This document shows positions 7,254 through 29,041 of a stretch of 64,000 nt of DNA, piece after piece. The notes under the pieces are model-generated. The model did no database searches, was not told the origin of the DNA, and was given only the letters and a program-made list of their open reading frames with translations. Every line of letters starts with the position of its first letter. Position 1 is the first letter of the stretch. The DNA comes from Wolfiporia cocos (Eukaryota > Basidiomycota > Agaricomycetes > Polyporales > Phaeolaceae), in NCBI GenBank assembly GCA_029448655.1, contig JACCLO010000013.1, positions 558,001 through 622,000 on the forward strand, in the 5' to 3' direction. Position numbers and translations under genes: made by a program.

Positions 7254-7270
7254 GTACCCCCTCTTCTAGC
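7254..7270 (-). other. Element 1 polypurine tract
   Basis: On the minus strand AGAAGAGGGGGTAC lies directly before the 3' LTR, where plus-strand DNA synthesis is primed in LTR retrotransposons. Confidence 0.7.
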
Positions 7271-10200: not shown

Positions 10201-10725
10201 CTTTTGATAGTCCTGGATAGGGCGTAGTTTCCCATCCTTCTTTTTGACAAAGAAGAAGGGTACCCCCCATGGCGACTTCGATGGGCAGATGCGGCCCATG
10301 CGCAGTTGTTCTTCTAGAAAATCGTCCAATGCTTCTTGTTCTCTAGGTGAAAGGGCGTAGATCTTGCCCGCATATGGTTCTGAATTGGGGAGGAGTTCGA
10401 TGGCGTGATCCCACGGTCGCCATTCTGGGAGTGTGTCGAATTCCTTTTCCTTGAACACGACTTTGAATTCGTGCAAGTACTCGGGTACGACTTCCTCGAA
10501 CGTCTTGGCTTCTGTGGTCTTGCCCATCGTGATGGCTTTTTCTGTTGCCTTTGTGGCGTGGACACGTTCCACGATGTCCGCTCTACACTTGTCCCTGTTT
10601 CGGATCCATGTGTCAGCGAAAATATAGTAAATGTGATCACCATCCTTGATCTGCTCGTGCTCACAGTCACAAGAGAATGTGATCCTTCACTTCTTCCAGT
10701 TGATGGAAGGATTATGGTCTTTGAG
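7254..10725 (-). pseudogene. Element 1 pol: RT, RNase H, integrase, C-terminal chromodomain-like region
   Basis: The RT/RNase H part is 10572-9280, with YLDD intact (VIVYLDDILIF), the RNase H start IEADSSDFATG and a TDHKNLEY segment. About 20 residues are missing between the YLDD region and EKSEVEYLG, an in-frame deletion. At 9280 a Trp codon has become TAG. The integrase is 9015-8104 with the HHCC finger (HPGMENTY...CIKCQQ) and the acidic core (SVDM, FSDRGPQF, HPQTDGQMERIN). From 8043 follow a GPY/F-like stretch and a poorly conserved chromodomain-like region. The stop at 8103-8101 and others show it is dead. Confidence 0.85.
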
Positions 10726-12645: not shown

Positions 12646-13354
12646 TGTTACGGTTATTTTAATTTTTCGAATATCGACAGAACTCACCATTGGACGAATA
12701 CGATACAGGGACTTGTTGCGCAACCAACTCCCCTGGCTACTCGTGACTCTACTGGGTGCATCCCCAGTTGTATTAGTCTATAGGGCGCGTTTCACCTTTG
12801 GCAGATCCAACTCTGCCACCGTTTCATGCTCATCGTTTATTAGCTGATAGATGGCGTTCAACCGCCATCATTCCTATCTATCGTCTCAGGTATATCACTA
12901 CATACCTATCAAACGTTTGGTACTATAGCGTAGATAGTATCGGTGACATCTGGGACAGACTTGACCCCTGAAACCCAACGTAGTATATAAACTAATGTAC
13001 CTACTGTCGAGGCTCTTCAGCTCGACCTTGTTGTACAAACAAGAAGTCTTATACTCGTTCTCAAACGTAGGAAACTACGCTCAGTATTTCTCACTCGAGC
13101 AACCGAACGACTAAGTCCTCGAAGTGCACACTGACTTCTCGGACTTAGGCGAGTCCTATATTCTATTCGACTCGCACCTGAACAGATTATATCCTCTAAC
13201 GCGCATTGGATATTAACCGATCTCCTAAGGACTTCACTTAGGACCTGAAGGCATCTAACGAGTATTTGCCTTGCATACGGCAACAAAGCCTACGTGCAGA
13301 AGAACGATCTATATTCGCGACTCGAATATACGAACGGGTATTCGACCCGTAACA
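12646..13354 (+). repeat. Element 2 5' LTR
   Basis: It is 709 bp, begins TGTTACGGTT and ends GACCCGTAACA. A TATA box (TATATAA, 12984-12990) lies 35 bp before AGCTCGACCTT (13019-13029), a sequence complementary to the primer site just after the LTR, so the transcript probably starts there. The 89-aa minus-strand frame inside it (and in the 3' LTR) is a by-product. Confidence 0.93.
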
Positions 13355-13400: not shown

Positions 13401-15248
13401 ATGATATTTGGACCAGAATTCCCAGCACGACTGATTGAACTCTTGCCCGAGGACATTCAGGGAGTCTACAGACTCAACCGATACGAGTGGACTGACACCA
13501 TTGGAGCCTTCCGTAACCGCGGAGGAATTGTTGTCATTCCAAGAGAAGATAGGGCATCGAAGTGGGTAGAAGTATACCCCTCCGCAAGAACGACCGCTTG
13601 GGAAATAACGCGTGAAGCGTTCGAACGATTCGGAGAAATCCCTCCGATGTCAACCGCGACGTTGACCGAAAACGAAACCGAAACCATCAACAGAACCTTC
13701 GATGCCGATGGAAATACGAATCAGCCTTCGGGCGCCACAGGAATGGCAGGAATTGAGCGCATCGGAAATGATGGGAGAAATCCTGGAAACTTTACAGGAA
13801 CAGATAACAGCCAGACCGGAGGACAGGACCCTCCAGGATTTATATCTGCTTTTGCGCAGAGTGGGATTGGGCCTATGGCTGGAGGAACAGACCTCTTTGG
13901 AAACCCCCCACAGAACGCACCCGGAATGGGTAGCGGAGGAAATCCGTCTTGGACTAGCCCAAGCGGAGGAATGGGAACGACAAACCCAGGAACATGGCCT
14001 TCAGGCCTATTTGGACGAACCTCCGCAGGTACAAGCGGAGGAGGACTGGGAGGAAACTTCGGACTCGGAGGAGGGAATGCCCCCCCTCCTGGAGGACTCG
14101 GAGGAGGAACCCCCGCGAACCCCGGAGGAGGAAACCCTGGAGGGAACCCAGGGAACCCCGGAGGAAACCCAGGAAACCCGGGTGGAGGACACCCGGGAGG
14201 AGGAGGACCCCCAGGCGGGCCTCCGCCACCGAATGCGCCGCAGCCTCAACCTCCGGCGCCGAACCCGTACTACCGACCCCCAATGATAAAGATCAATCCC
14301 CCAGACGTATTCGACGGGGAACGATCCGACATGCAGAACTTCATAAACCAGTGCAATTCCTGGTTTACGATGTACGAAACGTCGTTCCAGAACGACGTTC
14401 AAAGAGTGATCTTTATCCTCTCTTATATTTCGAACAAGGGGAAAACGGGCCAATGGAAACAGAATTATCACCGGGTTTATACGAACCCCCAGACGAAACG
14501 ATTCTTCCCGCCTAGTCTTGCACAGTTTGATGCAGACTTTCAGAAAGCCTTCGGAGCCATCGAAGAGGTACAGAAGGCGCGGAAGAAAATCCTGGACGTA
14601 ACCCAGGACAGGAAGGACATCGATGATTATATCACCGAGTTCAACAACTTGGCCGGAAAGGCCCAGTACGACCGATACAGCGCGGACGGAAACGCGCTGC
14701 TCATAACCCTCTTCGAGAAAGGGTTACCCGAACATACGACCCGATACATCATCGGCGTTCGACCGCTACCAGCAACCATTGATGAATGGCAGTCCGCTGC
14801 CTCGTACTATGAAAATACGTACAAAATATTCTTGAAACGGGACAAACCGTTTGTCAAGAAAAAGGCTTGGCAAGCCTCGAACCAGAAGGACGGATGCACT
14901 AGTGCTCCACAGATAACCGCACCGAAAGATCCGAATGCGATGGATGTAGATCGAATGACCACCCAGGAAAGGGACGATCACATCAAGAAGGGAAAATGTT
15001 TCACCTGTCATCAGCCAGGACATATGTCGCGAGACTGCCCAAAGAGGCCGAGGAAGCCAGCCCGCCCTAGGCGGACTACTCGAAAGATCGAAGAAGAAGA
15101 AGCCGAGCAAGAAGCTCGCATTGAAGAAGTCTCTGAGGAAGAGACTGAATACATTACCGCTAACAGAGCGGTCACAGCAATTAGGGCTCTGAAAGCCAAG
15201 AACCCCGAGCTCCTAGCACAGCTCGTAGAAGAACAGGATTTTGCCTAG
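13401..15248 (+). CDS. gag: Element 2 Gag (capsid and nucleocapsid)
   Basis: The product is 615 residues. The N-terminal 130 residues have an ERFGEIPPM-like segment also found in element 3. Residues about 140-290 are a Gly/Pro/Asn-rich disordered stretch. The Ty3-type capsid follows (from about 300, with IKINPPDVFDGERSDMQNF and later FEKGLPEHTTRYI). A CX2CX4HX4C knuckle is at about 535 (CFTCHQPGHMSRDC) with a basic tail after it, then an acidic C terminus. The start at 13401 is the first ATG after the LTR in this frame. Pol lies in the -1 frame and overlaps the end of gag. Confidence 0.9.
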   Translation: MIFGPEFPARLIELLPEDIQGVYRLNRYEWTDTIGAFRNRGGIVVIPREDRASKWVEVYPSARTTAWEITREAFERFGEIPPMSTATLTENETETINRTFDADGNTNQPSGATGMAGIERIGNDGRNPGNFTGTDNSQTGGQDPPGFISAFAQSGIGPMAGGTDLFGNPPQNAPGMGSGGNPSWTSPSGGMGTTNPGTWPSGLFGRTSAGTSGGGLGGNFGLGGGNAPPPGGLGGGTPANPGGGNPGGNPGNPGGNPGNPGGGHPGGGGPPGGPPPPNAPQPQPPAPNPYYRPPMIKINPPDVFDGERSDMQNFINQCNSWFTMYETSFQNDVQRVIFILSYISNKGKTGQWKQNYHRVYTNPQTKRFFPPSLAQFDADFQKAFGAIEEVQKARKKILDVTQDRKDIDDYITEFNNLAGKAQYDRYSADGNALLITLFEKGLPEHTTRYIIGVRPLPATIDEWQSAASYYENTYKIFLKRDKPFVKKKAWQASNQKDGCTSAPQITAPKDPNAMDVDRMTTQERDDHIKKGKCFTCHQPGHMSRDCPKRPRKPARPRRTTRKIEEEEAEQEARIEEVSEEETEYITANRAVTAIRALKAKNPELLAQLVEEQDFA

Positions 15249-15337: not shown

Positions 15338-18300
15338 ATGACGCTGGCAAAACCCGTGAAGTGCAATGCACTAATCGACTCAGGAGCAATGTCAAACCTG
15401 ATCCACAGCAGAGTGGTAGAAAAATACAAGGTGCCCACGCAACCCTTGAAGAACCCGATCATCGTCAAAAATGTTGATGGAACAGAAAACAAGGATGGGC
15501 GAATAGACCGAGAAGCCACCATACTACTACGATATCCAAAGACCCAGAAAACGCGAAAGGTCCGATTCCTGGTAGGATCAATCGGAACAGAGAATATGAT
15601 TCTAGGGTATGGATGGCTAAAAGACGAAAACCCCACAATCGACTGGAAGGACCAAACAGTCGATGTACGATCAATACTAGGGGCAGAAGAAAAGAAACAG
15701 GAAGCCACGATCCGAATGGATACGGTGGAGATGGTAGTTGCCCCAGAAGGGAAAATTCCAACAAGGGGGACCCAAGAAGCTGCGGGATATGACCTTTACG
15801 CCGCAGAAGAAACCGAGATCCCCGCCGGAGGATGGAAACTCGTCTCCACAGGAGTAAAAATGAAGATCCCGAAGGGATCGTATGGAAGGCTGGCCGGACG
15901 ATCAGGCAACACCCTCAGACACGGATTGGTAGTACAAGCCGGAGTCATAGATTCAGACTACCGAGGAGACGTCGGTGCCATCGTCTTTAACCACTCAGAC
16001 AAAGCGCATAGAATTATCCCGGGCATGCGAATAGCCCAGATAATTTTCGAACGACACCTCACCCCTGACATCTTGAAGGTCGAAGATCTAGATGAAACAG
16101 AACGAGGGGAGAAAGGGTTTGGATCCACAGACCAGCCAGAAGAAACAGCGCAGCGGCTCTATACTCCCGAAGAATACGAAGCGATCCGACGCTTCGCAAA
16201 AGATAACTCTAGGATCATAGGAAAGAAAGGGGAGACACGAAAGAAGTTCCGAACAAAGATACAAATCATCAACGCTGTCAGGAAAGCGCTGACGAAATCT
16301 CAGGAATTCGCACAAAAAACCCCCGAACCAGAACGAACAATTGAAGAGATGGTCCCGAAACACCTATTGGACTTCGCCAAGGTGTTCAGTAAGGAGTCCG
16401 CAGCAGCGTTCCCCCCGTCGAGACCATGGGACCACGCAATCGAATTAAAACCCGATTTCGTGCCGAAAGACTGCAAAGTCTATGCACTCTCGCCTAAAGA
16501 GCAACAGGCGTTGGACGAATTTCTAAAAGAAAACTTGGCCAAGGGATTCATAGTCCCTTCAAAATCCCCGATGGCGTCACCATTCTTTTTCGTCCCAAAG
16601 AAAGACAGCGGCCTACGACCCTGTCAAGATTATCGATATCTGAACGAAGGGACGATAAAGAACGTCTATCCCTTACCACTGATCTCGGAGCTCCTGGAAA
16701 AGCTAAAAGGAGCAAAGATCTTCACAAAAATGGACCTTAGAGCGGGATACAACAACGTGCGAATCAAAAAGGGAGACGAATGGAAGGCGGCCTTCAAAAC
16801 AAACCGAGGGTTGTACGAGCCCACGGTTATGTTTTTCGGATTATGCAACGCGCCGGGAACCTTCCAGGCAATGATGAATGAAATCCTGAAAGAAGAGATT
16901 CTCGAAGGGTGGGTGCTCGTCTACATGGACGACATCCTCATTTTCTCAGAAGATGAGAAAACACACAAGGAACGAGAGCGACGAATTCTCCAAAGACTGG
17001 TGGATAACCACCTCTTTGTGAAACCTGAAAAATGCGCCTTCGGCGTCGACAGAGTCGAATTTCTGGGACTAGTCATTACCCCAGGAAATATTCAGATGGA
17101 CCCAGCGAAACTCAACGGGATTAAAAACTGGCCAACCCCCCGAAATCTCAAGGAAGTCAGATCCTTCCTCGGGTTTGCGAACTTCTATCGAAAATTCATC
17201 GACCACTACTCAACGCACGCACGACCCCTGGTAGACCTCACAAAAACGGTCACAGGAACGGGGTTCCAGTGGACGGACAAAGAGCAGAGAGCATTCGACT
17301 TCATGAAGCAGGCATTCACGACGGCGCCCGCGCTAGGAACACCCGACAAGGAAAAACCATTCATCCTCGAAACAGATGCATCTCAGTTCGCCACAGGAGC
17401 AGTGTTAAAACAAACAGATGAAACAGGGCGTGAACGGCCAGTGGGATATCTCTCACAATCCCTGACATCGACAGAACGGAACTACGAAATCTACGATCGC
17501 GAACTACTCGGAATAGTCCGAGCACTAGAAGAATGGCGGCACCTATTGGAAGGAGCACCACATCGGATCTTGATCCGAAGTGATCATCAGAACCTGACGT
17601 ACTGGAGAAGTGCACAGCGCTTAAACCGGCGACAAGCGAGATGGCATCTATTCCTCTCGCAATTCGACCTGAAATTGCAGCACGTCCCAGGAAGAAAACT
17701 AGTCATGGCCGACACACTTTCCAGGTTGTACCACCTGGACGAAAGCAACGAAGACAACGAGGGAATCACCATGATCCCAGACGAACTCGTCGTTCACGCA
17801 ATCCAGATCCCGATCATTGATCGAATCAAGAACGCCCACGATCGAGATGAATCTGCGGAACAGGCGATCCGTGCTCTAGAAGGCACAGGCGAATTCCCCG
17901 CAAGAACCACCGCAGATGAATGGCAACAAACGGATGGAATACTGCTCTACAGGGGCAGGATGTACGTGCCAAGGGACGAGGGCCTTCGACGGGACGTTAT
18001 CTCGAAATACCACGACACGATCCCGGCCGGACACCCTGGGATCTGGGGTACGACGATACAGGTTACGACCCATTTCTGGTGGCCCGACATGAGAACAATG
18101 ATAGCGGAATATGTCCGGGGCTGTGCAATCTGTCAACAGATGAAACCTGATAGGAACCCGCTAAAAACCCCTTTACAACCAATACCGACACGAGAGGACG
18201 CCCTCCCATTCTCACAGTGCTCGGTTGATTTTGTCACCGACCTGCCAAGAGTCGGAAAATATGACTCCATGATGGTGATCGTCGACCATGGCCTATCCAA

Positions 18301-20392
18301 GGCCATCTCTCTCACCCCATGCGACAAAACAATCACGAGCGAAGGGGCCGCAGAAATATTCCATCGAAAGATTTACTCACAATACGGCATTCCCCGAAAG
18401 ATCATTTCAGACAGGGGACCGCAGTTCGCATCGAAACTGTTCAAGGAATTATGCAAGCTGCAGGGAACGGAATCTTCGATGAGTACGGCGTACCATCCAC
18501 AGACCGACGGACAAACGGAAAGAATGAATCAACAGATCGAAGTGTACCTTCGTATCTATTGCATGAACGACCCTTTCCAATGGGTACAACGACTACCTGA
18601 CGTCGAATTTGCGCACAACACCAAGCGAACCGAAAACCGACCTGCGCCTCTTGAAATAATCTTGGGTTATATTCCAAGGGGATTCCCAGACTACGACAGG
18701 GTAGGAAACGTCCCGGCAGCAGTCGACAGGATAAAAAAGATCAAGGAGGCGCGAAAGATGGCATTCATCGCGCACGAACTAGCTCAGAAAAGAATGGCGG
18801 GACGTTTCCTCCGAGAATTACCGAAGCTCGAGAAAGGAGACAAGGTTTGGCTCGACGCAAAGAACTTAACCATCCCCTACGAATCTAACAAGCTAGCACC
18901 AAAAAGGGAAGGACCCTTCACCATCACAGAAAAGATGGGACCCACGACATACCGGTTGCAGTTACCGGCGAACTGGAAAATTCATCCGGTATTCCACGCT
19001 GCCTTACTAAAACCATTCAAAGAAACAAGGGTGCACGGACCCAATTACCTACGGCCGCCACCTGATATCATCAAGGGACAGGAGGAATACGAAGTCGAAG
19101 CTATCTTGGCTGACAGATGGCGAGGAAAGAAGCATCAGTATTTTGTCAAGTGGAAAGGCTATGCTACAGCCGACAACTCATGGGAAGACGAGGGAAACTT
19201 GGAACACTCAAAGGAGATGATAAAAGACTACCACAGGACGAGAGTCAGGACAGCCCCAACACTCGAAAACCAAACAGTAATAGTATGTCGACGACTCGCC
19301 ACCAACTCCCTCGCCGCGGTCCGACCCCTCACAGCGATGAGAGTCACAGGCAAGGACGACCGAGAGGTACGCCGCAGAGGAGGTACTCCCCCCAACACCT
19401 ACAGATCAGACACGCCCTGCTCTGGTACAGGGCCGAGGAACCTTTTGCTGGCCGAGCCGATGGCTGGACGGCCCTCTTTGACATCGCGCAGGATCTCACC
19501 CACGTCTACAGCTCGTACCAGAATATCACCGAGGACCTCGTCCGAATGGAGGGGCAGATCAGAGCGCAGAGAGAGGGACTCGAGTTACTCACCGACAGAC
19601 TTATCGACCGACTGGCCGCCACCACGACGGCCCGACTACGACACGCGCTCAACGACTTCGAGGATCGCGAGCACGCTACTCCCAACCGACCCGAATACGT
19701 ACCACGACCCGCCCGCTTTTTCACCACCGATGAACGACGTCGAGTTGCAAGGCCGTTTAATTTTATGGAGGGCGATAGAGTATTATTTCCACTGCCTACC
19801 GAGACTCAGAGGGCCCGCCGAACAGGAGTTAGAGACTCGACGCCACGTATTCCTGGTATGGGAGGCAACGGGAGACGTGAACCACCTGCACGCCCGACGA
19901 GCCCTAGGGCTACCCCAGAACGACAGCGAAGAGCGAATAGCACGCCGCCTATTCGACGATCTCCATCGGTGCAGAGCATTACCCGCGAGGAGTTTGAGCG
20001 AGGTGCGAGGGAGCACGAACGAGACACCGCCTCCTTACCCACGTGGGCGCAACGGAACCTCCACCGCGCCGCTCACCACTGGAGATACCGACACAACGAA
20101 TATCTCAGAGATATCCCTTCCCTACGGGTACCAGCGAGGCCCTCGCCTGAACAACCCTGTCGGCAGTGCGGATCCGCTAGCCACTGGATCCTCGACTGCC
20201 CCGACTATATTTGCAGAGCTTGTGGGCTCAATCAACCAGGTCATCGACAGAATGAATGCCGCCAACACTTCGTATGGCGAACTCCTACGACCCCGTCCCT
20301 CAGCGGGAACGGCGACATCTACAACGAACAGGACGCCGAGGCACTCTGAGGAAAGGAACTTGGAAAATTCGTCGAGGCCGACGAATGTCTAG
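15338..20392 (+). CDS. pol: Element 2 Pol: PR-dUTPase-RT-RH-IN-chromodomain plus conserved extension
   Basis: The product has 1684 residues from the first ATG, but the frame is open and conserved back to at least 15245, upstream of that ATG, so translation probably enters from gag by a -1 frameshift. Domains: aspartic protease (ALIDSGAMSN, residue about 13); dUTPase (about 140-265; AAGYDLYAA, GRSGNTLRHG, GVIDSDYRGD, RIAQIIFE, RGEKGFGSTD); RT with YMDD at 16922-16933; RNase H (LETDASQFATG, 17355); integrase HHCC (HPGIWGT...CAICQQMK, from 18028) and DDE core (SVDFVTD, ISDRGPQFA, HPQTDGQTERMN); GPY/F-like motif (about 18910-19010); chromodomain (EYEVEAILADRW...FVKWKGYATADNSWED, 19085-19190). A further 390 residues are low complexity except for a conserved block at 19730-19990 (VELQGRLILW...RRALGLP). 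Confidence 0.92.
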   Translation: MTLAKPVKCNALIDSGAMSNLIHSRVVEKYKVPTQPLKNPIIVKNVDGTENKDGRIDREATILLRYPKTQKTRKVRFLVGSIGTENMILGYGWLKDENPTIDWKDQTVDVRSILGAEEKKQEATIRMDTVEMVVAPEGKIPTRGTQEAAGYDLYAAEETEIPAGGWKLVSTGVKMKIPKGSYGRLAGRSGNTLRHGLVVQAGVIDSDYRGDVGAIVFNHSDKAHRIIPGMRIAQIIFERHLTPDILKVEDLDETERGEKGFGSTDQPEETAQRLYTPEEYEAIRRFAKDNSRIIGKKGETRKKFRTKIQIINAVRKALTKSQEFAQKTPEPERTIEEMVPKHLLDFAKVFSKESAAAFPPSRPWDHAIELKPDFVPKDCKVYALSPKEQQALDEFLKENLAKGFIVPSKSPMASPFFFVPKKDSGLRPCQDYRYLNEGTIKNVYPLPLISELLEKLKGAKIFTKMDLRAGYNNVRIKKGDEWKAAFKTNRGLYEPTVMFFGLCNAPGTFQAMMNEILKEEILEGWVLVYMDDILIFSEDEKTHKERERRILQRLVDNHLFVKPEKCAFGVDRVEFLGLVITPGNIQMDPAKLNGIKNWPTPRNLKEVRSFLGFANFYRKFIDHYSTHARPLVDLTKTVTGTGFQWTDKEQRAFDFMKQAFTTAPALGTPDKEKPFILETDASQFATGAVLKQTDETGRERPVGYLSQSLTSTERNYEIYDRELLGIVRALEEWRHLLEGAPHRILIRSDHQNLTYWRSAQRLNRRQARWHLFLSQFDLKLQHVPGRKLVMADTLSRLYHLDESNEDNEGITMIPDELVVHAIQIPIIDRIKNAHDRDESAEQAIRALEGTGEFPARTTADEWQQTDGILLYRGRMYVPRDEGLRRDVISKYHDTIPAGHPGIWGTTIQVTTHFWWPDMRTMIAEYVRGCAICQQMKPDRNPLKTPLQPIPTREDALPFSQCSVDFVTDLPRVGKYDSMMVIVDHGLSKAISLTPCDKTITSEGAAEIFHRKIYSQYGIPRKIISDRGPQFASKLFKELCKLQGTESSMSTAYHPQTDGQTERMNQQIEVYLRIYCMNDPFQWVQRLPDVEFAHNTKRTENRPAPLEIILGYIPRGFPDYDRVGNVPAAVDRIKKIKEARKMAFIAHELAQKRMAGRFLRELPKLEKGDKVWLDAKNLTIPYESNKLAPKREGPFTITEKMGPTTYRLQLPANWKIHPVFHAALLKPFKETRVHGPNYLRPPPDIIKGQEEYEVEAILADRWRGKKHQYFVKWKGYATADNSWEDEGNLEHSKEMIKDYHRTRVRTAPTLENQTVIVCRRLATNSLAAVRPLTAMRVTGKDDREVRRRGGTPPNTYRSDTPCSGTGPRNLLLAEPMAGRPSLTSRRISPTSTARTRISPRTSSEWRGRSERRERDSSYSPTDLSTDWPPPRRPDYDTRSTTSRIASTLLPTDPNTYHDPPAFSPPMNDVELQGRLILWRAIEYYFHCLPRLRGPAEQELETRRHVFLVWEATGDVNHLHARRALGLPQNDSEERIARRLFDDLHRCRALPARSLSEVRGSTNETPPPYPRGRNGTSTAPLTTGDTDTTNISEISLPYGYQRGPRLNNPVGSADPLATGSSTAPTIFAELVGSINQVIDRMNAANTSYGELLRPRPSAGTATSTTNRTPRHSEERNLENSSRPTNV
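19285..20349 (+). CDS. Accessory ORF overlapping pol in element 2, double zinc knuckle
   Basis: It reads in a frame different from pol and encodes 354 residues from an ATG in the context ATGTCGACG, which is shared exactly with element 3. Residues 38-129 form a conserved helical, coiled-coil-like module (HLQIRHALLWYR...LVRMEGQIRAQREGLEL). The middle is a variable Arg/Pro-rich linker. From about 228 (SVQSITREEFERG) conservation returns, ending in two knuckles: C292, C295, H300, C305 (CX2CX4HX4C) and C310, C313, H320, C325 (CX2CX6HX4C). The frame stays open for 56 more codons upstream, but conservation starts at the ATG. I do not recognise the family; an RNA-binding or nucleocapsid-like role is inference. 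How it is translated is unknown. Confidence 0.7.
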   Translation: MSTTRHQLPRRGPTPHSDESHRQGRPRGTPQRRYSPQHLQIRHALLWYRAEEPFAGRADGWTALFDIAQDLTHVYSSYQNITEDLVRMEGQIRAQREGLELLTDRLIDRLAATTTARLRHALNDFEDREHATPNRPEYVPRPARFFTTDERRRVARPFNFMEGDRVLFPLPTETQRARRTGVRDSTPRIPGMGGNGRREPPARPTSPRATPERQRRANSTPPIRRSPSVQSITREEFERGAREHERDTASLPTWAQRNLHRAAHHWRYRHNEYLRDIPSLRVPARPSPEQPCRQCGSASHWILDCPDYICRACGLNQPGHRQNECRQHFVWRTPTTPSLSGNGDIYNEQDAEAL

Positions 20393-20403: not shown

Positions 20404-20770
20404 TGTTACGGTTATTTTAATTTTTCGAATATCGACAGAACTCACCATTGGACGAATACGATACAGGGACTTGTTGCGCAACCAACTCCCCTGGCTACTC
20501 GTGACTCTACTGGGTGCATCCCCAGTTGTATTAGTCTATAGGGCGCGTTTCACCTTTGGCAGATCCAACTCTGCCACCGTTTCATGCTCATCGTTTATTA
20601 GCTGATAGATGGCGTTCAACCGCCATCATTCCTATCTATCGTCTCAGGTATATCACTACATACCTATCAAACGTTTGGTACTATAGCGTAGATAGTATCG
20701 GTGACATCTGGGACAGACTTGACCCCTGAAACCCAACGTAGTATATAAACTAATGTACCTACTGTCGAGG
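20404..20770 (+). repeat. Element 2 3' LTR, first part
   Basis: The first 367 bp of the 709-bp LTR, identical by eye to 12646-13012. It ends with CGAGG, the target duplication of element 3. The break lies between the TATA box and the likely transcription start. Confidence 0.93.
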
Positions 20771-21304
20771 TGTTACGATCCGTATGAATCCGTATATTTT
20801 GACGCCTCACTGGAGAGGAGGACTTAGCGTTCAACCGCTGTATTGACCGATTATTCTTAGGGTCCCTGCGCAACCACCGACCCTCGTTTCATGTACAACA
20901 ACCCTACGCCCCTAGTCTCATAGCGTATCAGGTTCTAGGTGATATCTGTTGTATATCTACAGAGCTTCTACGTTTCAACCATTGTTGCGCCCAACCGCAG
21001 CGTTTCGGCTTAGTTATCGTAGCATACTAACCTTATGGACTTAGTGGTAGCAGTACCAAGGACACTATGACCCCAATCACAGAATCGTAGTATAAAGACC
21101 CTGTTGTAAATACTGGCCGAGTTCCTCAGCTCGACCTTGTTGAATTACAAGGATCCTATACTCGTTCTCAAAAGACTTAAGCAATTAAGTCTGCAGCCAG
21201 TATATCGACGCTCGACTCCGCTGAGTCCGACGAGTAGTGCGCTACTCGATACGCTGAGTAACTCGACTTAACATCTCAGCTGAACGGATATTCGATCCGT
21301 AACA
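20771..21304 (+). repeat. Element 3 5' LTR
   Basis: TGTTACGATCC...GATCCGTAACA, 534 bp. A TATA box (TATAAAG, 21091) lies 37 bp before AGCTCGACCTT (21128-21138), the complement of the primer site. Confidence 0.93.
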
Positions 21305-21305
21305 G

Positions 21306-21316
21306 AAGGTCGAGCT
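21306..21316 (+). other. Element 3 primer-binding site, self-priming type
   Basis: AAGGTCGAGCT, one base after the LTR, is complementary to 21128-21138. The site and spacing equal those of element 2 although the LTRs are otherwise largely different, so selection has kept the pair. Confidence 0.7.
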
Positions 21317-21349
21317 CTTAACAGACTCACTTACCAAGAGTGCAAGTCC

Positions 21350-22999
21350 ATGCAACGCTTTGACCTGGATCTCCCGAACCGGTTGATCCACCTGCTCCCC
21401 GAAGAATACAGACGCATCTACTACGAAGACAAACACGAGTGGAGAGATCCCCCCGCAGGATTCTTCACAAAAGGAGGGTATCTCACCGTCCCGACTCCAG
21501 ACAGACTTATTCCCTCGTGGGTACAGTTACCCCCATCCTCGAACGACCCCTGGGAGCAGACGCGCGCCGCTTTCGAACGCTTCGGAAACGTCACAAATTT
21601 GATGACACCGACCATCACCATATCTCGAACAGGCGATGGACAACTCGGAGGACAGACAACGAACCCCAACCCTGCAGGAGGAAGCATGGGTCTGGGAGGT
21701 ACAACCTTGGGCGGAAGTGCTGTTCCGGGAAGCGGCGGCACGAGCCAGGGCGCAGGGGGAGTGGCCAATATCCCTCCGTCAGTTAATAATCCGCTACCTG
21801 GAAATCCTAGCGGAACAAACCCCACCGGACCAGGAGCGTCTGGAGGAGGAGGAATTCCTGGAGGGGGAGGTCCCCCCGGGGGCGGAGGTCCCCCGGGCGG
21901 CACCGGTAATCCAGCAGGCGGCGCAGGAGGCAATCCAGGAGGACCGCCAGGCGGAGGAGGAGGACCACCAGGCGGAGGAGGCCCCCCAGGCGGAGGGAAC
22001 CCCGCGGGATGGGGCAGGCAGTTCGCCCCACCAGGGCGAGGGAACCGCATAAAGCTCGCCACCCCCGAACCCTTCAAGGGAGAACGAAAGAAGCTACAAC
22101 GCTTCAAGAATGATTGCAACACATGGTTCACCATGTTCGCGGCAGACTATCAGACCGACGATCAGAAAATCCTCTTCATCATGTCCTACATTCGAGGAAG
22201 CGACCGAGTAGACCAATGGAAGGAGAACTACTACGCCAAGCACACAGATCCGGCGACAGGAGCATTCGTCCTCCCCCCGCTACCCCAGTTCAGTGCAGAA
22301 TTCGACGCCGCATTCGAACCCATCGAAGAGAAACAGAAAACCAATGACGATCTCTTCGACCTCAGGCAGGAGAAGAAGAACATCGACGACTTCAATATTG
22401 AATTCGATAACCTCGTAGGGAAAACGGGACTGGACCGACAACAGTGCAACCCACTCCTCGTCACCTTGTACAAGAGAGCCATCCGACCCGCACTCGTTAC
22501 GCATATCATAAATATTGTTCCCCCCGTCATAACCCTCACGGACTGGATGAAACAAGCATCCATCAACGAGAACAATTATAACACGTTCATCAAAGGACGA
22601 GGAGACCCCAAGAAGAAACCCCAGTGGCGACCCAAGGGACCTAGCTCCCCAGCCACACCGACTCCCGTGAAAGACCCGAACGCAATGGACGTTGACCGAA
22701 TGTCCACAGAAGAGCGACGCAAGCTCCAAACTGAGGGGCGGTGCTTCAATTGTAAGGAGAAGGGCCACCTCTCCAGCAACTGCCCAAAGCGAAAGAAGAA
22801 GTCTCCTGCAAAGGGCAAAGCTCGAAAGGTAGAGGCCGTAGAGGAGGGGAACCCCGCCGCTCACACGGAAGGAGAAGACACCGAGGATGAGGACGATGGA
22901 GCCACCGCAGTGGAAGAAGCAGTTAACGCGATCAGGATTCTCAAAGCTAAGAACCCCTCGTTCCTTGCCCAGATTCTCGATGACCAGGATTTCGAATAG
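21350..22999 (+). CDS. gag: Element 3 Gag
   Basis: The product is 549 residues, with the same plan as element 2's Gag: an N-terminal segment with FERFGNVTN, a Gly/Pro-rich disordered stretch (about 100-225), a Ty3-type capsid (from about 230, PFKGERKKLQRF), a CX2CX4HX4C knuckle (CFNCKEKGHLSSNC, about 465), a basic patch and an acidic tail. The ends of both Gags are alike (ILKAKNP...Q.D.QDF). Confidence 0.9.
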   Translation: MQRFDLDLPNRLIHLLPEEYRRIYYEDKHEWRDPPAGFFTKGGYLTVPTPDRLIPSWVQLPPSSNDPWEQTRAAFERFGNVTNLMTPTITISRTGDGQLGGQTTNPNPAGGSMGLGGTTLGGSAVPGSGGTSQGAGGVANIPPSVNNPLPGNPSGTNPTGPGASGGGGIPGGGGPPGGGGPPGGTGNPAGGAGGNPGGPPGGGGGPPGGGGPPGGGNPAGWGRQFAPPGRGNRIKLATPEPFKGERKKLQRFKNDCNTWFTMFAADYQTDDQKILFIMSYIRGSDRVDQWKENYYAKHTDPATGAFVLPPLPQFSAEFDAAFEPIEEKQKTNDDLFDLRQEKKNIDDFNIEFDNLVGKTGLDRQQCNPLLVTLYKRAIRPALVTHIINIVPPVITLTDWMKQASINENNYNTFIKGRGDPKKKPQWRPKGPSSPATPTPVKDPNAMDVDRMSTEERRKLQTEGRCFNCKEKGHLSSNCPKRKKKSPAKGKARKVEAVEEGNPAAHTEGEDTEDEDDGATAVEEAVNAIRILKAKNPSFLAQILDDQDFE

Positions 23000-24903
23000 G
23001 GAGGAAGCGCACGGTCTTACCTCCCGAAAGTGCAGCCCATGTAATTACCTCGTATGAACGCGACCGGTCGCTGTTTATCCCCGTAACCCTGAAGCTGCAG
23101 AAAGCCGTGAAAGTAAACGCCCTCATCGACTCGGGAGCCATGTCCTCCCTGATCCATTCAAAACTTGTCATTCGACACCGAATCGTGACTCGACCTCTAA
23201 GAAACCCAATCACCGTCCGGAACGTCGATGGAACCACCAACAAGGACGGACAGGTAGATCGGGAAGTCTACCTCCCCATCAAATACGGAGGAAAGGAACG
23301 AAAAGTCCGCTTCCTCGTAGGAAACATCGGAAAAGAAGAAGTAATCCTCGGATACAATTGGTTGAAAAAGGAGAGCCCTGTCATCGATTGGGCAACAGGG
23401 AAGGTCGATATCACCCCTGACAAACCAACAGAAAAAGCCCGAACGACCAACGCCATAATCCAACTTGACACTGTCAAAATGACAGTAGCCCCCGAAGGGA
23501 AACTCCCAACGCGGGGAACCGACGGTGCCATTGGATACGACCTATACGCCTCAAAGGATGAGGAAATCACCCCTGGGGGATGGAAGGCGATCCCCACCGG
23601 GGTTCGGATGGAGATCCCGAAAGGATCTTACGGGAGGATAGCCTCACGATCGGGCCTCACGCTCAAACACGGGCTCACGGTTGGGGCAGGAGTGATCGAT
23701 CCTGACTATCGCGGAGAAGTCCAAGTCATCCTGTTCAACCAATCGACGACACCTCATCGTATTATTCCCGGAATGCGCATTGCGCAAATAATATTTGAAC
23801 AAGCCCTCACCCCCGAAGTAGTCCAGGTAGAGGAGCTCGATGAAACAAAGAGAGGGGATGCGGGTTTCGGCTCTACCGACACTCGGCAGCCAGTGGAGGA
23901 TCCCATCTCAGACGAAGAATACCAACTACTCAGGAGATTTGTCCGAACCAAGAAACTGGTCGCCCCTAGAACCAGGAACCCAAGGCGATTCCGGCAGGAA
24001 AGCGCAGCCCTATCCCGCATACGCAAGGTAATGACGAAATCCCAGGAACTCTCCGAGACAGAGAAAAAGGGGCCCACAGAGGACGCCCTCCCCGAACACC
24101 TGAAAGACTTCGCACACGTCTTCAGCAAGAAAGCCGCAGCCGCATTTCCCCCTTCGAGACCGTGGGACCATGCTATCGAACTAAAACCTGACTTCGTCCC
24201 CCGGGACTGCAAGGTATACTCGCTGTCCCCCAGAGAACAAAAGGCCATGGACGAATTTCTGGCAGAAAATCTCGCCAAGGGATTCATCCGACCATCGAAG
24301 TCCCCCATGGCGTCCCCCGCCTTCTTCGTCCCAAAGAAAGACGGAGGGCTAAGGCCCTGCCAGGACTACCGATACCTAAACGAAGGAACGGTTAAGAACG
24401 CTTATCCCCTACCCCTGATATCTGAACTCATTGAGAAGCTAAGAGGGGCAAAGGTGTTCACCAAAATGGACCTGCGAGCAGGATATAACAACGTACGGAT
24501 CCGAGAAGGCGATCAATGGAAGGGCGCATTCAAAACCAATGCTGGCCTCTACGAACCAACAGTAATGTTCTTTGGGATGTGCAATTCACCAGCAACGTTC
24601 CAGGCCATGATGAACGAGATACTAAAAGAGGAAATCGCGGAAGGATGGGTATTAGTCTACATGGACGACATCCTCATCTTCTCTCCAGACCAAACGACCC
24701 ACAGAGAGCGAGAGCGACGAGTCCTGCAAAAGCTGGCTGAGGAAAAGCTATTCGTGAAGCCCGAGAAATGCGCGTTCGGGGTAGAGAGGGTAGAGTTCCT
24801 TGGACTCGTAATCGCCCCCGGCCAAATCCAGATGGACCCCGCCAAGCTCAAAGGGATCCGCGACTGGCCACCCCCGCGAAATGTCAAAGGGGTCCGCTCC
24901 TTC

Positions 24904-24937
24904 TTAGGGTTCGCGAACTTTTAGGGTTCGCGAACTT
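24904..24937 (+). repeat. 17-bp tandem duplication in element 3 pol
   Basis: The unit TTAGGGTTCGCGAACTT occurs twice in direct succession, 24904-24920 and 24921-24937. Element 2 has one copy at the same place (LGFANFYRKF). Seventeen bases shift the frame and create TAG at 24922-24924. Confidence 0.95.
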
Positions 24938-27031
24938 CTACAGAAAGTTCATCGACCACTATTCCGCGCACGCGCGACCGCTCATCGACCTCACAAAAAC
25001 GACAACGGGCACAGGGTTCAAGTGGACAGAACGAGAAAGCGAGGCGTTCGAATTCTTAAAAAATCAGTTCGTAACAGCCCCCGCGCTGCTCCTCCCCGAC
25101 AAAGGGAAACCCTTTATCCTGGAAACCGACGCCTCCCAGTTCGCCCTCGGAGCAGTGCTCAAACAAAAAGACGATAACGGAAACGAGCGACCGGTGGGCT
25201 ATCTATCACAGTCCCTCACCCCGGCCGAACGAAACTACGAAATCTACGATCGAGAACTCCTAGGAGTGGTTCGCGCGCTGGAAGAATGGCGCCACCTTCT
25301 AGAAGGGGGTCCACATCAGATCTTGATTAGGAGCGATCACCAGAACCTTACGTATTGGCGAAGCGCCCAGAGATTGAATCGGAGGCAAGCGAGATGGCAC
25401 CTGTTACTATCTCAATTCGACATACGGCTACAGCACGTCCCAGGAAAGAAGTTGGTAATGGCAGACACCCTCTCGCGCCTCATGAATTTGGACAGCTCCG
25501 AACACGACAACGAAGACATTCTGATGCTGCCCGATACCCTATTCATTCACGCAATCGAAGTCCCGATCATCGATCGGATCAAGATCGCGAAGTCCTTCGA
25601 TCCGATCGCGGAACAGGGACTCCGCGCCCTTGAACAAGGGGAACAGCCTCCTTTAAGGACAGTAATGGAAGACTGGCAGTACACCGAAGGGGTCCTCTTG
25701 TATAAGGGGCGGATGTACGTGCCGAGGGACCCGGGGCTGAGAAAGGACGTTATCTCAAGATATCACGACCCAATAGCGGCAGGCCACCCCGGAATTTGGG
25801 GGACGACCCTGAAGGTGCAAGAGCACTTCTGGTGGCCCGACCTTCGAAAAACCGTGGCCGAATATGTCAAAGGCTGCGCCATCTGTCAGCAGATGAAACC
25901 CGACCGACATCCGACAAAGGCGCCGCTGCAACCGATTCCGACCCGAAAAGACGCACTCCCCTTCTCACAATGCTCAGTGGACTTCATCACCGACCTCCCC
26001 CGGGTAGGGAAATATGATTCGGTTATGGTCATTGTCAATCATGGGCTGTCAAAGGCGATATCCCTGACCCCATGCGATAAGACCATCACCAGCGAAGGAG
26101 CCGCCGACATATTCCACCGGAAAATCTACTCGAAGTACGGGCTCCCTAGGAAAATCATCTCGGACCGAGGCCCCCAGTTCGCCTCGAAGTTTTTCCAAGC
26201 TCTCTGCAAGCTTCTAGGGATCGACTCCGCCCTGAGTACGGCGTATCACCCACAAACCGACGGACAGACCGAGCGAATGAACCAACAAATAGAAGTCTAC
26301 CTGCGTATCTACTGCATGAGCGACCCGTACCTCTGGGCTGCCAGACTCCCAGATGTAGAATTTGCCCACAACACGCGCAGGACCGAAAGAGGTTTGGCCC
26401 CCACCGAAGTCATCATGGGGTATATTCCCCGGGGATTGCCCGAAGAAGACAACCCGACATCGGTGCCAGCCGCGGGAGAAAGGCTGAAAAACATCAGAGA
26501 GGCAAGGGAGAAGGCTATCGCTGCGCACGAACTAGCCCAAAAACGAATGGCCGGACGGACCCTGCGCGATTTGCCTAAACTTAGCAAGGGGGACAAGGTG
26601 TGGCTTGATGCCAAGAACCTCCACCTCCCGTACGAATCACGGAAGCTCGCTCCAAAAAGGGAGGGACCGTTCACCATCGCCGAGAAGCTCGGGGCCGTCA
26701 CGTACAGGCTGGCTCTGCCCCCGCGGTGGAAGATACACCCGGTCTTCCATGCCTCGCTACTGAAACCGTTCAATGAGACAAGGGTGCATGGGCCCAATTA
26801 CACGAAGCCACCCCCGGACCTGGTCGAAGGGCACAAAGAGTACGAGGTCGATTCCATCCTGAACCAAAGGCAACATCGAGGGAAAAGGCAGTATTTGGTC
26901 CATTGGAAGGGCTACCCAACCGCTGACGACTCGTGGGAAGACGCAACGAACTTGAAGAATTCCCCCGACCTCCTGAAGGACTACAAAAGTCGGCGGAGGG
27001 GGAGCAGAACCCGCCAGGTCGAAGAAGTAAC

Positions 27032-28105
27032 ATGTCGACGCCTCCGCCTAGCCAACCCGACCGTCCCAGGGCGCCGACGCTGCGTCGGTCCCTCGCCGTC
27101 CGCATGGGATACCAGACAGGCAGGTGTTACGGGTGTTCCGAGGAGGCCCACCTCCGCATCCGCCATGCGCTCACCTGGCACAGGTCCGACGTTCCCCCCG
27201 GAGGTCATCCAACCCCCTGGACCGATCGATTTGAGCTCGTACAGGAGCTCGCCGCCGTCTACGACGGCTACCAAGACGTTACCGAGCGGCTTGTCCAACT
27301 CGAACGGACAGTCCGCTGGCAGAGACAGCAGCTTGGGCGGAACATCGATCAGTGGATCGACCACCTCGGGGCGTCGACGCCATCGCGAATCCGGAGAGAG
27401 TTCAACCAAGGAGAAGAAGGCCCGCGTCGCCCGCCCCGTCAGCGAAGCCCCGTCCCTCCAATGCCCTCCTGGCTACTCGACGACGATGAATTGGCTCGAA
27501 TTGCAGAACCGTACGATTTTATGGAATACCGCTCTCTGGTACCTGACCACGCTCCCCCTGAGACCTCCGCCGCAGGAGCTCGACCTGGAGAACCGGAGAG
27601 CCCTGCTCCTCATCCACGAGGCAGCGAACGACGCCCAGTTCGAGAGGGGCAGAGCAGCGCTAGGATTGCCACCCCGCCGCTCACTGCCCCAGCTGACGAC
27701 GAAGCTGGTCGACGATCTCCGTCAATTGAGGTCATCAGCCGAGAGGAGTTCGAGCGGGGTCGCGACGCCTGGAACGACCCCCTTCTCAGTCTACCTAGAT
27801 GGCTCCGGGAGCGCATCTGGGTCCACCACCACCACCAGCGGTACGAATCCGGCGACTATCTCCGCGACGTCCCCTCCGCTCGATCCCCGCCCAGGCCATC
27901 TCAAGCAGAGCCCTGTCGAAGCTGCGGCAGCCCTTACCACTGGATCCTCGACTGCCCCGACTACCGCTGCCCCACGTGTCGGGTATCCCAGCCCGGACAT
28001 CGACGAGGGGAATGCGCGCCCTACCAGCTCTGGGTCCCTCCCGCCACGCCTCCTCTCCCCGATGGAGATGCAGGGTATAACGACCCCGACCCCGAGGCCC
28101 TTTGA
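27032..28105 (+). CDS. Accessory ORF overlapping pol in element 3, double zinc knuckle
   Basis: It encodes 357 residues from the shared ATGTCGACG start, in a frame different from pol. It contains the same N-terminal module (HLRIRHALTWHR...LVQLERTVRWQRQQLG), a diverged linker, the SIEVISREEFERG block and knuckles at C295, C298, H303, C308 and C313, C316, H323, C328. An extra CYGC pair lies ahead of the module. The ORF is unaffected by the 17-bp duplication upstream. Function is unknown; a nucleic-acid-binding accessory protein is my inference. Confidence 0.7.
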   Translation: MSTPPPSQPDRPRAPTLRRSLAVRMGYQTGRCYGCSEEAHLRIRHALTWHRSDVPPGGHPTPWTDRFELVQELAAVYDGYQDVTERLVQLERTVRWQRQQLGRNIDQWIDHLGASTPSRIRREFNQGEEGPRRPPRQRSPVPPMPSWLLDDDELARIAEPYDFMEYRSLVPDHAPPETSAAGARPGEPESPAPHPRGSERRPVREGQSSARIATPPLTAPADDEAGRRSPSIEVISREEFERGRDAWNDPLLSLPRWLRERIWVHHHHQRYESGDYLRDVPSARSPPRPSQAEPCRSCGSPYHWILDCPDYRCPTCRVSQPGHRRGECAPYQLWVPPATPPLPDGDAGYNDPDPEAL

Positions 28106-28146
28106 GTGGCCGTGATGCTTGGATTTCATCGAGGGCGATGACGGCT

Positions 28147-28160
28147 TAGGAGGGGGGTGA
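28147..28160 (+). other. Element 3 polypurine tract
   Basis: AGGAGGGGGGTGA lies directly before the 3' LTR. Confidence 0.75.
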
Positions 28161-28694
28161 TGTTACGATCCGTATGAATCCGTATATTTTGACGCCTCAC
28201 TGGAGAGGAGGACTTAGCGTTCAACCGCTGTATTGACCGATTATTCTTAGGGTCCCTGCGCAACCACCGACCCTCGTTTCATGTACAACAACCCTACGCC
28301 CCTAGTCTCATAGCGTATCAGGTTCTAGGTGATATCTGTTGTATATCTACAGAGCTTCTACGTTTCAACCATTGTTGCGCCCAACCGCAGCGTTTCGGCT
28401 TAGTTATCGTAGCATACTAACCTTATGGACTTAGTGGTAGCAGTACCAAGGACACTATGACCCCAATCACAGAATCGTAGTATAAAGACCCTGTTGTAAA
28501 TACTGGCCGAGTTCCTCAGCTCGACCTTGTTGAATTACAAGGATCCTATACTCGTTCTCAAAAGACTTAAGCAATTAAGTCTGCAGCCAGTATATCGACG
28601 CTCGACTCCGCTGAGTCCGACGAGTAGTGCGCTACTCGATACGCTGAGTAACTCGACTTAACATCTCAGCTGAACGGATATTCGATCCGTAACA
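28161..28694 (+). repeat. Element 3 3' LTR
   Basis: 534 bp, identical by eye to 20771-21304, followed by the CGAGG duplication. Confidence 0.93.
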
Positions 28695-28699
28695 CGAGG

Positions 28700-29041
28700 C
28701 TCTTCAGCTCGACCTTGTTGTACAAACAAGAAGTCTTATACTCGTTCTCAAACGTAGGAAACTACGCTCAGTATTTCTCACTCGAGCAACCGAACGACTA
28801 AGTCCTCGAAGTGCACACTGACTTCTCGGACTTAGGCGAGTCCTATATTCTATTCGACTCGCACCTGAACAGATTATATCCTCTAACGCGCATTGGATAT
28901 TAACCGATCTCCTAAGGACTTCACTTAGGACCTGAAGGCATCTAACGAGTATTTGCCTTGCATACGGCAACAAAGCCTACGTGCAGAAGAACGATCTATA
29001 TTCGCGACTCGAATATACGAACGGGTATTCGACCCGTAACA
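28700..29041 (+). repeat. Element 2 3' LTR, second part
   Basis: The last 342 bp of the 709-bp LTR, identical by eye to 13013-13354, followed by the TGGTG duplication. Confidence 0.93.

Follow-up and report, generated by a model that had tools for sequence, protein, structure and literature searches.

The window, a stretch of 64,000 nucleotides of the genome of the wood-decay fungus Wolfiporia cocos (contig JACCLO010000013.1, positions 558,001 to 622,000), carries the LTR retrotransposons element 2 and element 3. In both of them a reading frame, here called ORF3, overlaps the end of pol. The features are listed below by their positions in the window.

12646..13354, plus strand: 5' LTR of element 2
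13401..15248, plus strand: element 2 gag, which has one CCHC knuckle of its own
15338..20392, plus strand: pol of element 2 (protease, dUTPase, RT, RNase H, integrase, chromodomain, tail)
19088..19237, plus strand: chromodomain of element 2 pol (Pfam PF00385, pol residues 1251-1300, E 6e-15)
19238..20392, plus strand: C-terminal tail of element 2 pol including the stop codon, overlapped by ORF3
19285..20349, plus strand: ORF3 of element 2 (354 aa, lysine-free; N-part predicted to be helical, then a linker rich in Arg and Pro, then a double zinc knuckle)
19390..19668, plus strand: residues 36-128 of ORF3, an N-terminal part predicted to be helical
19736..19978, plus strand: pol tail, middle module (helix predicted at low confidence; over the ORF3 linker; pol-frame constraint in 3 of 7 pairs)
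20158..20199, plus strand: ORF3 zinc knuckle 1 (CX2CX4HX4C; C292-C295-H300-C305)
20212..20259, plus strand: ORF3 zinc knuckle 2 (CX2CX6HX4C; C310-C313-H320-C325)
20404-20770 plus 28695-29041, plus strand: 3' LTR of element 2, its two halves split by element 3
20771..28694, plus strand: element 3, within the 3' LTR of element 2
24768..28115, plus strand: 3' part of element 3 pol, with the overlapped tail
27032..28105, plus strand: ORF3 of element 3 (357 aa; start and knuckles as in element 2)

The 5' and 3' LTRs of element 2 were identical over 367 and 347 bases. The LTRs of element 3 (20771-21304 and 28161-28694) were identical to each other, and this element has a 5-bp target site duplication, CGAGG. 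The upstream part of its pol (23107-24924) lies in another frame; thus, this copy of pol is broken. In element 2, Pfam matches gave the order protease-RT-RNase H-integrase of Ty3/gypsy chromoviruses, with a chromodomain at the C-terminus of integrase; the protease was called only from sub-threshold matches (best 21.6 bits; cut-off 28.2) and a LIDSGA motif. The LTRs and, for element 3, the target site duplication also accord with this class. Thus, the Pfam domains of element 2 pol bear out the proposal in a preliminary description of this DNA that ORF3 resides in a dUTPase-bearing chromovirus.

That description had also reported a 354-codon frame distinct from pol, at 19285-20349, that ends in two CCHC-type knuckles, which we confirmed. 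ORF3 of element 2, which would be read in the -1 frame relative to pol, is wholly nested in the pol frame (15338-20392), and pol remains open to 20392. The start had been placed approximately 95 bp past the chromodomain; because Pfam locates the chromodomain at 19088-19237, the distance is instead approximately 47 bp. Element 3 carries the same ORF with the same ATGTCGACG start, as had been claimed, and its product is 40% identical to that of element 2. The ATG was present in 89 of 97 distinct loci, with A at position -3 in 88 of these 89, and the double knuckle in 93 of the 97. In all 19 aligned copies, the eight knuckle ligands were invariant and knuckle 1 had the CX2CX4HX4C spacing of CCHC zinc-knuckle proteins. 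The classical spacing was not found in both knuckles, as knuckle 2 is CX2CX6HX4C, and the Pfam PF13696 match to ORF3 scored 20.2 bits, under the cut-off of 27. The net charge of ORF3 was +14 in element 2 and -4 in element 3. The knuckles and the richness in arginine suggest that the predicted protein binds nucleic acid.

The 64.43 Mb genome contained at least 115 copies of ORF3 (115 were scored and matched), 94 of them without an internal stop; the loci were chosen by similarity to ORF3, a choice that inflates the number of intact ORF3s. The codon pattern of knuckle 1 occurred at 403 places in the genome, compared with none for a reversed control. ORF3 was conserved in the other families sampled, in line with the preliminary description. 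The public relatives found for it were four W. cocos proteins (7988 candidates were scored in one of the searches). In the W. cocos gene models P0008-P0011, which represent both family types, the N-part of ORF3 is joined to the middle and tail of the pol frame. At nine positions of the W. cocos knuckle region, the pol-frame residues allowed C/H/W in 36 of 36 cells; further, 8 of 8 changes at knuckle positions stayed compatible with C/H/W, compared with 18 of 52 control changes. As judged from these residues, the counts imply that the ORF3 knuckles persist in W. cocos. No relative of the pol tail was found among 7985 public candidates scored, and none of ORF3 among PDB sequences. The AlphaFold2 models were poor (mean pLDDT 46 and 34), and Foldseek with the ORF3 model returned one meaningless match (E 7.9) and nothing of note.

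We examined the openness of the two frames in seven chosen copies by 5000 synonymous shuffles per copy, in which the amino acids of one frame were held fixed. With pol fixed, the ORF3 frame had no stops where 8-10 were expected, and at most 1 of 5000 shuffles was as clean in the seven copies. With ORF3 fixed, the pol frame had no stops where 2.5-4.7 were expected, and 3 to 162 of 5000 shuffles were as clean. The third frame of the region held 7-20 stops per copy. Stop avoidance in both frames was also tested by segment in six copies. In the N segment, the fraction of shuffles with a clean pol frame was 0.008 in element 2, 0.023 in copy L079 and 0.12 in element 3, and over the knuckles it was within chance (0.26-0.72). 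Overall, both frames were thus open beyond chance, as in an overprinted pair, the pol frame over the knuckles being nonsignificant when taken alone.

At the start of ORF3, synonymous divergence of the pol frame (pS, 60-codon windows) fell from 0.662 to 0.233 between element 3 and L079 (Fisher 3e-29) and from 0.327 to 0.077 between element 2 and L069 (Fisher 1e-15). The drop rests on these two pairs; pairs with L074 were left out, as part of its frame upstream of ORF3 is not in register. The phase of substitutions between element 3 and L079 differed between segments (chi-square p 1e-5). When dN/dS was computed in both frames for seven pairs, as the preliminary description had proposed, ORF3 was not near 1: whole-ORF values were 0.18-0.40 in six pairs, and 0.69 in L079-L098, in which the C part is out of register.

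In three of the seven pairs, dN/dS of the two frames formed a mirror image along the N, middle and C segments. For element 3-L079, the values were 0.22, 1.28 and 0.09 in ORF3 and 1.48, 0.25 and 1.93 in pol; for element 2-L069, they were 0.28, 1.51 and 0.07 in ORF3 and 0.50, 0.21 and 1.41 in pol, on few changes. For L079-L098, only the N and middle segments were used (0.16 and 1.11 in ORF3; 1.17 and 0.17 in pol), dN in the C segment being over 2 in a decayed copy out of register. The mirror image was weak in the near pairs element 2-L075 and element 2-L074, with middle values of 0.27 and 0.34 in ORF3 and 0.47 and 0.37 in pol. It was not observed in the most distant pairs, element 2-element 3 and L058-L079, in which no segment of pol fell clearly below 1, the ORF3 middle was below 1 (0.26 and 0.54), dS was near saturation and the middle was gapped. 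Aligning element 2 and element 3 by the pol protein gave a pol-like phase pattern, and the result for distant pairs therefore depends on the alignment.

In simulations of three pairs, 400 runs each, in which only one frame was under constraint, each frame proved conserved in the N and middle segments beyond the effect of the other (0 to 19 of 400 runs reached the observed value). The observed identity of the pol middle was reached in 0 of 400 ORF3-only runs for element 3-L079 and in 2 of 400 for each of the other two pairs. Over the knuckles, amino-acid constraint on the pol frame was not clear, the observed identity being reached in 32, 62 and 34 of 400 runs. Selection on amino acids was thus found for ORF3 and, by simulation in three pairs, for pol in the N and middle segments; for pol it was not found over the knuckles, nor by dN/dS in the two most distant pairs, and the pol value of 1.48 in the N segment of element 3-L079 also speaks against it. 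ORF3 and a module of the Pol tail both appear to be under selection. The earlier interpretation is therefore partly supported: ORF3 is real, conserved, under purifying selection and part of a dUTPase chromovirus, but selection on the pol frame had not been foreseen and knuckle 2 is nonclassical. Because the overlapping pol frame also shows selection, mainly in the middle, two-way dual coding is favoured over a gene on a spent pol tail.

On the sequence evidence, we thus consider it probable that pol of this dUTPase-bearing chromovirus carries an overprinted accessory protein, ORF3, which probably binds RNA, and that the last approximately 1.1 kb of pol is dual-coding. The pol frame would give a C-terminal extension of Pol past the chromodomain, the functional part of which may be a short, probably helical module. 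The -1 frame would give a separate accessory protein, in which a helical N-part that probably oligomerises is followed by a flexible linker rich in Arg and Pro and by the double zinc knuckle, such that the constrained part of each protein would sit mostly over the flexible part of its partner. Translation of ORF3 probably begins at the ORF3 ATG, which has A at -3, on an mRNA that is either subgenomic or spliced. The product most likely binds RNA or cDNA of the element, whether as a second protein of nucleocapsid type or as a regulator. In this scheme, we infer the production of the protein, its expression route, its folding and flexibility, its binding of nucleic acid and its role.

A different role is possible, although we consider it rather unlikely: instead of being nucleocapsid-like, ORF3 may counter host defence or regulate, for example by suppressing RNA silencing or as a stability factor. 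Its place at the 3' end of pol, apart from Gag's own knuckle, would fit such a role. Further, representative ORF3s of three families contained no lysine and 45-57 arginines, and the zero lysines in element 2, element 3 and L079 compare with 6-10 expected in shuffles with pol fixed; such a lack would avert ubiquitin-dependent turnover. However, AAA and AAG were rare in the tail whichever of the three frames was read, so that the lack may have a base-level cause; 16 of 70 intact copies had 1-3 lysines, and the sequence and fold searches gave no relative in such a role.

A mosaic protein, for which a single frame would matter at any given position, is improbable; it would start in ORF3, pass by splicing or frameshifting into the pol frame in the middle and perhaps return for the knuckles. 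The frame of constraint does switch in just this way in the three mirror-image pairs, and the four gene models P0008-P0011 fuse the N-part of ORF3 with the pol-frame middle and tail. However, both connecting stretches were open in element 2, element 3 and L079, and evolution under one frame usually breaks them: a stop arose in the pol frame of the N segment in 383, 270 and 254 of 400 simulations of the three pairs, and in the ORF3 middle in 380, 257 and 253 of 400. The GT of the implied intron donor was missing in 4 of 11 copies (CCATTC in L079, L085, L096 and L097) and kept in element 2, element 3 and L098. Further, the junctions of P0008 and P0009 differ, and a second shift, back to the knuckle frame, was without support.

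We regard as very unlikely that ORF3 alone is functional and that the pol frame past the chromodomain is tolerated read-through. The pol frame was not visibly constrained over the knuckles, nor by dN/dS in any segment of the two most distant pairs, as this would predict. The element 3-L079 middle (0.25 in pol, 1.28 in ORF3) argues against it, as do the ORF3-only simulations of the pol middle and the improbable openness of pol in the N segment of element 2 and L079. To chance or composition we give almost no credence: the region is CGA-rich and 60-65% GC in elements 2 and 3, and a GC-rich, Arg-rich stretch could be open in two frames, but the shuffle, synonymous-rate and phase tests and the 7-20 stops in the third frame refute this unless one unseen bias is common to all.

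Several origins and expression routes of ORF3 were also considered. An env-like protein was rejected in a crude test, as ORF3 had no strongly hydrophobic segment (top 19-residue Kyte-Doolittle mean 0.38 in element 2 and -0.05 in element 3). Descent from the element's own Gag gave no convincing alignment (best E 0.25 in element 2); the N-terminus in element 3 matched its own Gag at E 0.002 over 25 residues, which is not a reliable alignment. The N-part of ORF3 and the pol middle module both have an L-Q-x-R-x-x-L-W-like motif, but profile comparison did not identify them as duplicates (probability 0.2%). For a -1 frameshift from Pol into ORF3, no heptamer site was common to the families among six copies examined. 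A canonical heptamer in pol phase lies 93 bases before the ORF3 ATG in both element 2 and L069; a further one was seen at -90 in L069 and one at -81 in L079, whereas L075, element 3 and L097 have none. Some copies of the element-2 type may still have a site of their own. In several families, a CAG was noted by eye within approximately 20 bases before the ATG, too weak to count as a splice acceptor.

Long genes nested within other genes are characteristic of viruses with compact genomes. Retroviral accessory genes such as vif overlap the end of pol over a short distance. ORF3 resembles them in position, as an accessory gene at the 3' end of pol, and differs in that its 354 codons are fully nested. 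Knuckle 1 shares CX2CX4HX4C with the Gag nucleocapsid, unlike knuckle 2. Among the titles and abstract openings of the matches listed in open-literature searches (extra, overlapping or nested ORFs; dUTPase elements), none described a nested ORF in the pol tail of a chromovirus. The hepadnavirus S gene, approximately 1.1 kb, is fully nested in the P replicase gene (PMC5604429), and PosPlaTy3-5 of Postia placenta are chromoviruses with a dUTPase between protease and RT (PMC2864245). S encodes an envelope protein, whereas ORF3 is a knuckle protein without a strongly hydrophobic stretch, in an LTR retrotransposon. The PosPlaTy3-5 elements share the dUTPase position in a polypore Ty3/gypsy pol with element 2, but the relevant passages mention no nested ORF at the end of pol. 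LTR retrotransposons of bdelloid rotifers, as described in the main text of PMC5408684, have a captured ORF3 and, except in the Mag family, a dUTPase between protease and RT. They thus resemble element 2 in an extra ORF besides gag and pol; in contrast, their extra ORFs are env-like or enzymatic (DEDDy, GDSL), they have no chromodomain, and that text does not use the word "overlap".

On balance, it is likely that overprinting within its own lineage gave a chromovirus an accessory gene like those of viruses, whose 354 codons lie fully within pol and encode a double-knuckle protein without lysine, and that pol gained a C-terminal module in the same bases, the frames splitting the constraint by segment. 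With alternating constraint and hundreds of comparable copies, this high-copy fungal retrotransposon is a tractable natural case of overprinting. The results suggest that chromovirus pol may end in a selected module plus an extra gene missed by standard annotation, since the four W. cocos gene models merge both frames in a single product. Should ORF3 act on RNA or on host defence, chromoviruses would share accessory proteins with retroviruses.

Element 2 is a young Ty3/gypsy chromovirus, the LTRs of which match without a difference over 367 and 347 bases. The 3' LTR is interrupted by element 3 (20771-28694), which has identical LTRs of 534 bases and target flanks that form a CGAGG duplication. 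In both elements, an ORF with two CCHC knuckles (ORF3) overlaps the pol tail, the part of pol after the chromodomain.

13401-15248, + strand, gag of element 2
15338-20392, + strand, pol of element 2 (protease with weak hits, dUTPase, RT, RNase H, integrase, chromodomain)
19285-20349, + strand, ORF3 of element 2, in the -1 frame within pol
27032-28105, + strand, ORF3 of element 3, a homologue (40% identical) with the start ATGTCGACG as in element 2

The preliminary description reported the same ORF and start context in element 3, as the homologue bears out, and placed the start of ORF3 approximately 95 bp after the chromodomain; the Pfam boundary puts it at about 47 bp. ORF3 of element 2 ends 43 bp short of the pol end. 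The pol of element 3 is split over two overlapping frames (23107-24924 and 24768-28115) and the copy is therefore broken there; we took it as sequenced, with the frame break unrepaired. Elsewhere in the window, an LTR of the element-2 type (6343-7054, - strand; inverse orientation, 94% identical) is possibly a solo LTR, and a broken gypsy-like element of a different kind (7216-12279, - strand) shows by eye a dUTPase-like stretch ahead of a protease motif. Related ORFs with HDLESFYWLL-type motifs (2269-4529 and 45219-47460, - strand; 48425-51003, + strand) are diverged copies, presumably resembling fungal FunK1-like kinases.

Extra ORFs occur in other LTR retrotransposons as well (PMC5408684), and Gypsy elements of the polypore Postia placenta bear a dUTPase, as does element 2 (PMC2864245; a figure legend there names a further ORF without an assigned function). 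No title or abstract listed in searches of the open-access literature concerned a gene lying inside a chromovirus pol tail.

We searched the 64.43-Mb assembly (76 contigs) containing the window. The accessible text of PMC9503964 gives 64.44 Mb, 78 contigs and 25.49% Gypsy for Wolfiporia hoelen SS20; we infer that the window genome belongs to W. hoelen or to a species very close to it. ORF3 of element 2 had at least 115 matches (all 115 scored among 634 candidates), 94 of them without an internal stop as counted from the match table. ORF3 of element 3 had at least 116 (114 of 602 candidates scored), including the group containing locus L079 at about 58-73%, and copies of the element-2 type around 42%. 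Across the genome, the knuckle 1 codon pattern occurred 403 times and its reversed control never. From the match lists we drew 98 loci (L001-L098), a sample thus biased towards loci with a similar ORF3; because L008 and L039 are one place, 97 remain. The ORF3 ATG was present in 89 of the 97 places (with A at -3 in 88 of these 89) and both knuckles in 93. ORF3 was intact in 71 of the 98 ORF3-selected loci, so that its absence from other family members, named in advance as grounds for rejecting it, was not seen; the pol tail was open over more than 330 residues in 83 loci, and both held in 68.

Stops in decayed ORF3 copies were almost all TGA (20 of the 21 stop-bearing rows in the element 2 ORF3 search), matching the expectation if CGA codons decay through CpG mutation. 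Many small contigs among C21-C72 appear to bear one and the same copy of the element-2 type, which has one TGA and often occurs twice at a distance of 67-79 kb (C30:21566 and C30:93632; C38:14160 and C38:86189; C43:14160 and C43:81225); some of these distances differ by about 5 kb. Either the element is part of a large repeated array or the assembly has produced this picture; the 6 kb beside one such copy (L102) contained gag of the element itself, and Rfam gave no match there.

The pol tail and ORF3 frames are intact in both window elements, and each copy has 7-20 stops in the third frame. Synonymous codons were permuted with one frame's protein fixed (seven chosen copies, 5000 shuffles each). 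With pol fixed, a mean of 8-10 ORF3-frame stops was expected and 0 or 1 of 5000 shuffles was stop-free; with ORF3 fixed, 2.5-4.7 pol-frame stops were expected and 3-162 shuffles were stop-free. Pol-frame openness over the ORF3 N-part was notable in the element-2 type and L079 (0.008-0.023 of shuffles clean), weaker in element 3 (0.12), and not notable over the knuckles (0.26-0.72).

Pol-frame synonymous divergence between element 3 and L079 was 0.66 in the 584 codons before the tail vs 0.23 within it (Fisher, 3e-29), and between element 2 and L069 0.33 vs 0.08 (1e-15); the drop begins at the ORF3 start at 60-codon resolution. Inside the overlap of element 3 and L079, the substitution phase shifts segment by segment. 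The proposed comparison of dN/dS in both frames showed for element 3-L079 that ORF3 was not near 1 overall, with 0.22 (aa 1-160) and 0.09 (241-357) but 1.28 in the middle (161-240), and the pol frame gave 1.48, 1.93 and 0.25, respectively. This mirror image appeared in three of seven pairs, also in element 2-L069 (ORF3 0.28, 1.51, 0.07; pol 0.50, 0.21, 1.41; few changes) and the first two segments of L079-L098 (ORF3 0.16, 1.11; pol 1.17, 0.17). Element 2 with L075 and L074 showed strong knuckle constraint in ORF3 (0.07, 0.08) and slight middle contrast. The two most distant pairs (element 2-element 3 and L058-L079), with dS near saturation and a gapped middle, lacked the mirror image, ORF3 being below 1 throughout and pol about 1 or more. 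When elements 2 and 3 were aligned by pol protein, the middle windows took a pol-like phase pattern, and this pair's result is therefore alignment-dependent.

Because overlap distorts single-frame ratios, we simulated evolution under one frame only (three pairs, 400 runs each). ORF3 identity exceeded the pol-only expectation in every segment (runs reaching the observed value: N-part 0, 4, 1; middle 7, 0, 3; C 0, 0, 0). Pol-frame identity exceeded the ORF3-only expectation in the N-part (0, 19, 14) and middle (0, 2, 2), and did not over the knuckles (32, 62, 34). The N-part had fewer ORF3 third-position differences (49/158) than the C segment did (59/119; p 0.002), which would fit a pol linker of slight remaining importance.

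Rough AlphaFold2 models were made of both proteins. The best part of ORF3 is a long helix at aa 60-128 (block pLDDT 63-78 for aa 61-120), with the linker and C-terminal end mostly below 50. The one stretch of the pol tail that approaches 50 (blocks 43-55) spans approximately residues 165-245 and is helical, and two further helices are predicted at about 30-36. The models, too weak for proof, suggest that the likeliest folded parts of each protein mostly overlie flexible-looking parts of the other, a predicted layout that fits the alternation of constraint between frames. Apart from weak Pfam hits to the knuckles, the homology and fold searches gave no match. The ORF3 N-terminus of the element-3 type, and not of the element-2 type, has a knuckle-like CX2CX4HX4H (27125-27166, + strand; CYGCSEEAHLRIRH), weakly like the Gag knuckle (E 0.002).

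ORF3 would be a separate translation product: its ATG is preserved together with the A at -3, and six copies showed no frameshift site common to the families. Its start is conserved and its knuckle ligands are invariant across aligned copies; it may bind nucleic acid through them and act beside Gag, which carries its own knuckle. The net charge of ORF3 varies between families (+14 in element 2, -4 in element 3). Coating of RNA by simple electrostatics is therefore uncertain, and the alternative of a regulatory or counter-defence role deserves serious consideration.

Lysine is absent from the ORF3 proteins of element 2, element 3 and L079, which contain 57, 47 and 45 arginines, respectively; in gag and pol of elements 2 and 3 the two residues are about equally frequent. 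Among intact copies, 54 of 70 were lysine-free and 16 had 1-3, and shuffles with pol fixed (five copies) gave 6-10. AAA and AAG are scarce in every frame of the tail, so this lack may originate at the nucleic-acid level. A lysine-free ORF3 would be without the usual ubiquitin sites, which is a lead only; proteins of the ubiquitin system have been described as having lysine deserts (PMC10169902).

Four protein relatives of ORF3 were found, all from W. cocos. A spliced mosaic protein is the obvious rival reading. It follows these four gene models (P0008-P0011, two per family type), in which the N-part of ORF3 is fused to the middle and tail of the pol frame; however, the implied donor GT, although present in elements 2 and 3 and L098, is missing in four L079-kind copies, the junction differs between P0008 and P0009, and the stretches that would be skipped remain open. 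Knuckle residues in W. cocos were judged from the pol-frame proteins, not DNA: an ORF3 Cys calls for pol-frame Val or Ala, a His for Thr, Ile or Met, and a Trp for Gly, a condition that is necessary but not sufficient. All 36 cells (nine positions in four proteins) were compatible, and changed cells stayed within the allowed set in 8/8 knuckle vs 18/52 control cases (Fisher, 0.0006); thus the knuckles are probably retained in W. cocos. The overprint would then predate the split of the window genome's species from W. cocos in both families, unless elements moved between them.
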